From Phenylobacterium sp. (GTDB lineage Bacteria > Pseudomonadota > Alphaproteobacteria > Caulobacterales > Caulobacteraceae), in NCBI RefSeq assembly GCF_030651755.1, contig NZ_JAUSBZ010000164.1, positions 1-42,869 of the forward strand: a stretch of DNA of 42,869 bases, written 5' to 3'. A program made the position numbers and the translations under genes. Positions 17,076 through 17,340 of this stretch are shown piece by piece; the first letter of the stretch is position 1; every line of letters starts with the position of its first letter. The notes under the pieces were generated by a model. It saw nothing but the letters and a program-made list of their open reading frames with translations, was not told where the DNA came from and searched no databases.

Positions 17076-17132
17076 ACCTTGGCGCGACCTGACCCAGTCG
17101 TCAGGCTGCACAAGGCTGGATCGAGATACAAA

Positions 17133-17164
17133 AAAGGGCCGGCCCATTGTCGGGGCCGGCCCTT
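17133..17164 (-). terminator. Rho-independent terminator of the small minus-strand unit
   Basis: Read on the minus strand, AAGGGCCGGCC (17164-17154) pairs with GGCCGGCCCTT (17144-17134), with one further inner C-G pair and a 7-nt loop. A run of six T follows. The T-run is only on the minus-strand side, so the terminator ends transcription coming from the 21-codon ORF or from the patatin gene. It cannot serve the plus-strand lipoprotein gene well. Confidence 0.8.
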
Positions 17165-17174
17165 CCATTGTCGG
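17136..17174. repeat. Imperfect tandem repeat forming the terminator stem
   Basis: GGGCCGGCCC followed by ATTGTCGG occurs at 17136-17153. It occurs again as GGGCCGGCCC-TTCC-ATTGTCGG at 17153-17174. Because GGGCCGGCCC is itself palindromic, the two copies pair to form the terminator hairpin. A duplication could have created the terminator. Confidence 0.6.
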
Positions 17175-17205
17175 ACCGCAAGCGCGGCGGCCCGCAACCT
17201 TAGCA

Positions 17206-17217
17206 GCGCTTAAGCGC
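17206..17217. repeat. 12-bp perfect palindrome over the small ORF stop codon
   Basis: GCGCTTAAGCGC is a perfect palindrome that contains the TAA stop of the 21-codon ORF. In RNA it could form only a weak hairpin because it has no loop. As DNA it could be a binding site. Confidence 0.35.
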
Positions 17218-17275
17218 GAACCTCGTGGGAGGCCCAGGCTACGGTCACCGACTGCGACAAGTGACAATGAGACAC
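17210..17275 (-). CDS. Putative 21-aa small ORF with an exceptionally long Shine-Dalgarno
   Basis: On the minus strand a GTG at 17275-17273 starts 21 codons ending in TAA at 17210-17212. The peptide begins MSHCHLSQSVTV and ends SHEVRA. AAGGAGG (17289-17283) sits 7 nt before the GTG. The complementarity extends over GAAAGGAGGTGATCCAG, which pairs with 17 nt of the usual 16S rRNA 3' tail. Upstream is a TTGCCA-N17-CATATT promoter; downstream is a strong terminator. I do not recognise the peptide. It has no signal sequence or membrane segment. It lies downstream of the patatin gene on the same strand but has its own promoter. It could be a real small protein, a translated part of a regulatory RNA, or a leader peptide with no gene after it. 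Confidence 0.5.
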   Translation of the reverse strand: MSHCHLSQSVTVAWASHEVRA

Positions 17276-17311
17276 TGGATCACCTCCTTTCAGTTGTTGA
17301 AGACTGATCTG

Positions 17312-17340
17312 AATATGGGGCGGGATTCTCAAATTGGCAA
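17312..17340 (-). promoter_or_regulatory. Sigma-70-like promoter of the small minus-strand unit
   Basis: On the minus strand TTGCCA (17340-17335) and CATATT (17317-17312) are separated by exactly 17 nt. That is 5/6 and 4/6 to the consensus TTGACA/TATAAT. The predicted transcription start near 17305 gives a transcript of about 175 nt to the terminator. The site lies in the 105 bp between the patatin stop and the small ORF. Confidence 0.5.

Follow-up and report, generated by a model that had tools for sequence, protein, structure and literature searches.

The window analysed here is a 42,869-nt stretch of a Phenylobacterium sp. contig (NZ_JAUSBZ010000164.1), and its minus strand carries a compact transcription unit in which all parts described by the initial annotation were found. 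These are a promoter (17312–17340, with TTGCCA at 17340–17335, a 17-nt spacer and CATATT at 17317–17312), a leader, TTCAACAAC (17293–17301), a 17-nt Shine-Dalgarno (SD) sequence complementary to the textbook 16S rRNA 3′ tail and hereafter called full-tail, GAAAGGAGGTGATCCAG (17275–17291), a short ORF of 21 codons with a GTG start and a TAA stop, VSHCHLSQSVTVAWASHEVRA (17210–17275), and an intrinsic terminator with a stem-loop of 14 pairs and a T-run (17132–17166). The GTG at 17275 lies 7 nt past GGAGG, and the final G of the SD sequence is the first base of this start codon. One promoter-like site was found where 0.1 was expected, and two terminator-like sites where 0.5 were expected. With up to two mismatches allowed, 0.10 occurrences of GGATCACCTCCTTTC would be expected in the window; there is one, and it is exact. 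The 13-mer AAGGAGGTGATCC has a single exact match in the 3.24-Mb assembly and one-mismatch matches at 16 other places. A fragment of a 16S gene, or an antisense artefact of one, was rejected as the source of the SD sequence, since an Rfam scan of the window returned no rRNA and both a promoter and a terminator are conserved as parts of the unit itself.

The RNA is predicted to fold at −86.3 kcal/mol versus a shuffle mean of −65.7 kcal/mol (z −4.38; 0 of 200 shuffles as good). In the minimum-free-energy fold, CAUUGUC of codons 3–5 pairs with GACAAUG, which abuts the terminator. This closing helix between codons 2–5 and the pre-terminator bases was overlooked by the initial annotation. Its 5′ arm (17263–17272, minus strand) consists of the TC of codon 2, a bulged T and CATTGTC, and its 3′ arm (17164–17172, minus strand) consists of GACAATG followed by GA, directly before the terminator. 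Rare codons had been pointed out earlier; TCT, CAT and TGT are accounted for by the closing helix that they form, not by codon preference.

The claim that no family had been described for this RNA is wrong, because positions 17135–17299 (minus strand) match the Rfam family RF01867, "caulobacter sRNA CC2171", over the whole model (1–159) with 95.4 bits, above the cut-off of 75. The RF01867 consensus structure itself contains the CAUUGUC/GACAAUG helix followed by a terminator, and both are present in the window RNA. The family reportedly originates from Landt et al. in 2008, and from the gene-number offset we take CCNA_R0051 to be, probably, the Caulobacter crescentus copy of the CC2171 RNA. A literature search, with most subscription journals outside its reach, found no functional study of RF01867 RNA or CCNA_R0051. 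RF01867 is listed by Rfam 15 with one added covarying pair (PMC11701678), and a Mesorhizobium huakuii survey assigns to it MH_s33, whose entry of 215 nt we take as an RNA-seq transcript length (PMC5596092). CCNA_R0051 is described as 209 nt long, with its own promoter, between CCNA_02253 and CCNA_02254, and as raised 4.4-fold, non-specifically, with mitomycin C (PMC6237742); it was classed as G1-expressed and still listed as non-coding in 2018 (PMC5988900). The name of the family is already known, and what is new is its reach and its anatomy.

To describe this reach we used two covariance models, RF01867 and a model (R1) built from an alignment of 83 loci (A1). RF01867 matches 331 of 390 genomes of the window's bacterial family at E ≤ 0.01, 217 of them above the cut-off, and within the window's genus R1 recognises the RNA in 98 of 101 genomes (74 of 75 among high-quality ones), one of the 98 (G283) at 26 bits only. 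In a class sample of 385 genomes, 96 match RF01867 and 157 match R1 at E ≤ 0.01, many of the weaker R1 matches spanning the terminator only. Divergent members score below the Rfam cut-off, which is exceeded in 14 of these genomes versus 91 that match R1 at E < 1e-5. In a phylum sample of 299 genomes, R1 matches 61 at E ≤ 1e-4, of which 59 are Alphaproteobacteria; the other two (L334, L335) fall outside the class and were read as chance. A scan of named genomes with the pattern GGAGGTGN{3,5}RTGTCNCAYTGYC gave at least 120 loci, including ones in Sphingomonas, Methylobacterium, Bosea, Microvirga, Azospirillum, Brevundimonas and Phenylobacterium, and one locus (L125, a Phenylobacterium MAG) encodes a peptide identical to that of the window. 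Of the first 180 loci, 120 were picked by this SD pattern, so counts of SD core, start codon and SHC are inflated in that set; ORF length and 3′ element were not part of the pattern. Loci outside the pattern set come from covariance models that include the 3′ element.

Sixty divergent matches were read individually, representing 59 of the 91 class genomes with E < 1e-5 plus a second match in one of them (G401); G542, G530 and the 30 best, mostly loci of the RF01867 class search, were left out of this reading. GGAGG is followed by a start codon 6–7 nt on in 60 of 60, and the ORF has 14–36 codons in 57 and 55–56 codons in the other three (L246, L266, L269). By eye, the proteins of these three have a signal-peptide look, and their loci carry the usual SD sequence and a matching closing helix; the two of these proteins that were tested gave no Pfam match. 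A near-C-terminal motif resembling EQP[SL] occurs in ten peptides (L211, L234, L244, L245, L247, L254, L257, L260, L262, L265).

Several genomes of genus g6 give two to four RF01867 matches, and the named Brevundimonas loci (L065, L086) fall into two types, one with an ATG start (MSHCLTPRAARR...) and one with a GTG start (VSHCHQSRAVAA...), which suggests paralogues. Among 47 viral contigs retrieved from IMG/VR with the SD pattern, six carry an apparent unit (L338, L339, L341, L360, L349, L373), four with a 14–16-aa KRCHLA type, one with a 33-aa and one with a 21-aa SHC type peptide; in L339, L341 and L373 the unit is close to the end of the stretch and may be host flank of a prophage.

The initial annotation had described an independent transcription unit, and its promoter position is kept among relatives along with the terminator. 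The consensus of 30 genus loci retains TTTGC and CCCATATT at this position, and the best promoter-like site ends 22–26 nt before the SD sequence in 115 of 178 loci, not thinned for relatedness, versus 13 in shuffles. The leader TTCAACAAC is kept in the consensus of the 30 genus loci and in A1, and more weakly across 175 loci. According to crude ORF calls, upstream neighbours lie on the same strand at 87 loci and on the opposite strand at 79, downstream ORFs lie on the same strand at 66 of 155 loci and on the opposite strand at 89, and for 185 of 321 neighbours the set contains no relative. In the window, the upstream same-strand gene encodes a cNMP-binding/patatin protein, relatives of which lie upstream at six other loci. 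The unit is free-standing, with no conservation of the genes downstream. A leader peptide with an attenuator for a downstream gene classically consists of a short ORF and then a terminator, but such a role had been denied for this RNA from the start; these neighbourhoods, in which no conserved co-directional gene directly downstream was found, make that role scarcely credible.

The conserved SD sequence is GAAAGGAGGTGATC(C), which is complementary to the textbook 16S tail. Where the spacer is 7 nt (155 non-redundant loci), GGAGGTG is followed by A in 128 and by G in 27, both of which can pair with the 16S U, and the two positions beyond are T in 152 and then C in 155. The last two spacer positions are more variable, with ~12% of loci unable to pair at each. 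The 16S 3′ end as such was not found in four assemblies (G000, G296, G304, G320), and the 16S-tail probe CTGGATCACCTCCTTTC matched in one of three relatives, there only as the antisense of the CC2171 RNA gene. Since rRNA seems to be masked or absent in these assemblies, the SD-16S complementarity rests on the textbook 3′ end. As far as sequence can tell, the SD is longer than translation would need, and its extension appears to be kept beyond that need.

An exposed GGAGG could also serve as a sponge for sRNAs with anti-SD motifs, for example the alphaR8 family SisA–D, whose members have in common a 10-mer carrying an anti-SD signature and for which CrfA acts as a sponge in C. crescentus (PMC12559287). 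The conserved extension GATC(C) fits 16S rRNA and would be superfluous for CCUCC motifs, and the ORF would be left unaccounted for, which together make a sponge very unlikely.

Covariation was estimated in A1 for the named structure of 16 pairs, in which 97.0% of cells are paired and the covariation score is 0.279 versus 0.168 in shuffled alignments. Cells changed on both sides number 77 versus 17.8 (sd 3.5) in shuffles; most of the 77 belong to the terminator, where compensatory changes occur in 8 of 9 counted pairs, and five to the closing helix, in which codons 3–5 are paired with the pre-terminator element in 97.4% of cells. Divergent members give stronger evidence for the closing helix than these A1 counts, with partners such as TCTAATGAGATT/AATCTCATGG (L211), GACGAGATC/GATCTCG (L228), CATGGT/ACCATG (L217), AGTGA/TCACGGA (several loci) and AAAGC/GCTTT (L266). 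A local hairpin in which codons 3–5 sequester the SD sequence, the fold preferred by RNAalifold on A1, was disfavoured, as in L060, from the same place as L211, these codons (AATGAGA) pair with the 3′ element (TCTCATG) and not with the SD sequence.

Pairing with the locus's own 3′ element was compared with permuted partners in a set of 60 divergent loci plus 15 hand-picked from the 180; no terminator was found in 6 of the 75, and the remaining 69 were thinned to 45 distinct loci. Own pairing averages −7.13 kcal/mol versus −4.88 (sd 0.30) for permuted partners, with 0 of 20,000 permutations as low. In 7 of 45 loci the true partner comes out first; it falls in the better half in 37 and in the worse half in 8 (last in L244). 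A control segment (codons 9–13) gives −7.39 versus −6.56 permuted (41 of 5,000), so base composition contributes to the pairing signal. In 82 non-redundant CATTGTC loci, GA follows the 3′ element in 73; here the 3′ element was chosen by best pairing, and the few mismatches are partly by construction.

The exceptional SD sequence and a genuine short ORF, both proposed earlier, are kept over non-redundant loci, and with the promoter they are the three elements on whose conservation in relatives the initial annotation had staked its proposal. The ORF has 18–30 codons in 146 of 162 non-redundant loci (14–36 in 159), versus 22 of 159 and 30 of 158 with 18–30 codons in the other two frames and 20.5% in shuffles, and its typical length is about 24 codons. 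Start codons are GTG in 95, ATG in 62 and TTG in 5 of these loci. For the ORF body, dN/dS is 0.76 (bootstrap 0.62–0.93, 67 independent pairs) versus 0.92 and 0.82 in the other two frames, and an earlier count over 42 pairs gave 31% synonymous codon changes versus 23% expected. Frame and length are held far more strictly than the peptide sequence. RF01867 is filed as a non-coding sRNA, and the kept ORF frame would speak for translation of a peptide that seems barely constrained.

We weighed whether the RNA is the mRNA of a functional, lineage-specific small protein with a strong SD sequence, whose 3′ UTR helix limits its own translation. The kept ORF length, the upper bound of 0.93 on dN/dS, the excess of synonymous changes and the interchange of GTG, ATG and TTG starts are all as expected for such a protein, and the Sinorhizobium meliloti protein SEP1 may be a family member for which a product was seen. 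A dN/dS below 1 leaves room for peptide function. However, peptide bodies of different families share little past M/V-S, dN/dS is near that of the other frames, an ordinary SD sequence would suffice, and codons 3–5 track the 3′ element, not the peptide. A functional small protein is, in our judgement, improbable. The peptide body is lineage-specific and may be dispensable. The peptides are not hydrophobic (mean GRAVY −0.04; 4 of 159 above 0.8), and a hok-like type I toxin, which calls for a short hydrophobic membrane peptide, was disfavoured on these values. On balance, the evidence points to ribosome capture and translation, more than to the sequence of the peptide, as what is conserved.

Published evidence on translation points in both directions. 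SEP1 has 23 aa and a pI of 4.18, is conserved in Rhizobiaceae, had the highest translation efficiency among 54 new sORFs, and was supported by a Western-blot signal and one peptide spectrum (PMC10117765). The S. meliloti Ak57 member of the CC2171 family, unannotated in its record, encodes the peptide MSNEISDLVMDMGEVKESRQPSA of 23 aa with a computed pI of 4.177, and its 3′ element CTCATGGA fits its own TCTAATGAG. From length and pI, not from sequence, we infer that SEP1 is the S. meliloti member of this family. PLSDB record CP090106.1 (L384) bears the label pSymB of S. meliloti Ak57, yet its 3.72 Mb come closer to the size of a chromosome. For C. crescentus, a 2014 study reported most ncRNA regions as untranslated, with two unnamed exceptions (PMC4117421); this report and the non-coding listing of CCNA_R0051 count against translation of the CC2171 ORF.

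The energetic cost of initiation was computed over 89 loci, in which clearing the initiation region costs 11.5 kcal/mol. The 7-nt SD core (−9.5 kcal/mol) covers this cost in 9 of 89 loci and the full tail duplex (−28.3 kcal/mol) in 89 of 89, with net binding averaging −16.9 kcal/mol. When the 3′ element is blanked, the cost is 8.7 kcal/mol and the SD core then suffices in 61 of 89. For 70 of 89 loci, the minimum-energy fold includes the closing helix. Judged by these calculations, the extended SD and this helix resemble two parts of a single switch, each fitted to the other.

The same net binding, the near-full complementarity to the free 16S tail and a first spacer position that varies among pairing bases only would also be expected of a ribosome-associated RNA that masks the anti-SD of 30S subunits, slowing initiation on other mRNAs, whether or not its ORF is translated; SprF1, which binds ribosomes through its purine-rich 5′ end, is a precedent (PMC8938821). 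Such occupation would leave unaccounted for the kept frame, length and stop, and equally the start codon at the standard 7-nt distance, and we consider it unlikely.

Instead, we propose that the RNA is a free-standing small mRNA whose conserved features all concern ribosome capture, which opens the closing helix, a reading for which we find belief and doubt evenly balanced. At rest, codons 2–5 pair with the pre-terminator bases and close the RNA, as covariation and folding show. A 30S subunit would then be captured by an SD sequence that matches nearly the whole single-stranded 16S tail, and, to judge from the computed energies, this binding could pay for opening of the helix, with the initiating ribosome covering codons 2–5. 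The full duplex must shorten for initiation, because pairing up to the start codon would keep this codon away from the P site; initiation may be slowed by such an arrangement, which may then serve as a trap. The ribosome would translate about 24 codons and leave, and the RNA could close again. The RNA would in this way toggle between closed and ribosome-loaded states, with its level, its stability or its freed 3′ segment possibly reporting or buffering the supply of free 30S subunits.

We infer that 30S capture opens the helix, that the ORF is translated, and that the function lies in the switch and not in the peptide. In its most explicit form, which we offer tentatively and which falls somewhat short of being probable, the function would be that of being translated and not the product: a class-wide sensor or trap for free 30S subunits, in which the SD would span all of the free 16S tail, the RNA's own 3′ end would lock the initiation region, and the ORF would time translation by its length of about 24 codons, its amino-acid content being near-neutral. 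Such an RNA would couple free-ribosome supply to the state or lifetime of an RNA. The options of the initial annotation, namely a small protein, a dual-function RNA or a ribosome-titrating RNA, are all still live.

The CC2171 observation stands and is larger than first stated, comprising promoter, SD sequence, frame and length, helix, terminator and breadth. If the proposed reading is true, a "non-coding" Caulobacter sRNA would rank among the class's more widely conserved small translated units, and its architecture would offer a clean test of RNA-based sensing of free 30S subunits in bacteria because it links a short ORF and an RNA switch to the tail of 16S rRNA. If SEP1 is a member, this would provide the genetic element for a strongly translated, unexplained S. 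meliloti small protein. The case also calls for caution with RNA families labelled non-coding.

Among known systems, fold-back inhibition of the hok mRNA is similar in that the 3′ end of a small mRNA pairs with that mRNA's own translation start region, and differs in that peptides of the CC2171 family are not hydrophobic. SprF1 of Staphylococcus aureus would be alike in ribosome occupancy via a purine-rich 5′ stretch, if the CC2171 RNA acts so (PMC8938821); however, SprF1 is an antitoxin RNA and not a member of the CC2171 family, whose RNA combines a conserved ORF with a full-tail SD and a closing helix of its own. The dual-function attenuator rnTrpL/peTrpL of S. meliloti likewise is a small RNA carrying a short ORF that is translated, and is reported to act in trans; it is leaderless and precedes trpE, whereas the CC2171 RNA has an extreme SD and its downstream gene is unconserved (PMC10117765). 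RcsR1, considered as a possible relative, was dropped, as a review states that its transcription starts from where rnTrpL, the trp attenuator RNA, is also transcribed. SEP1 shares 23 aa and a pI of 4.18 with the Ak57 member of the same architecture, and differs in that its RNA is not described as RF01867 in the passages on it (PMC10117765). Finally, the window RNA fits the whole RF01867 model, including the same CAUUGUC/GACAAUG helix, but where the Rfam label denotes a Caulobacter sRNA gene, we find a class-wide unit with a conserved short ORF and a full-tail SD.
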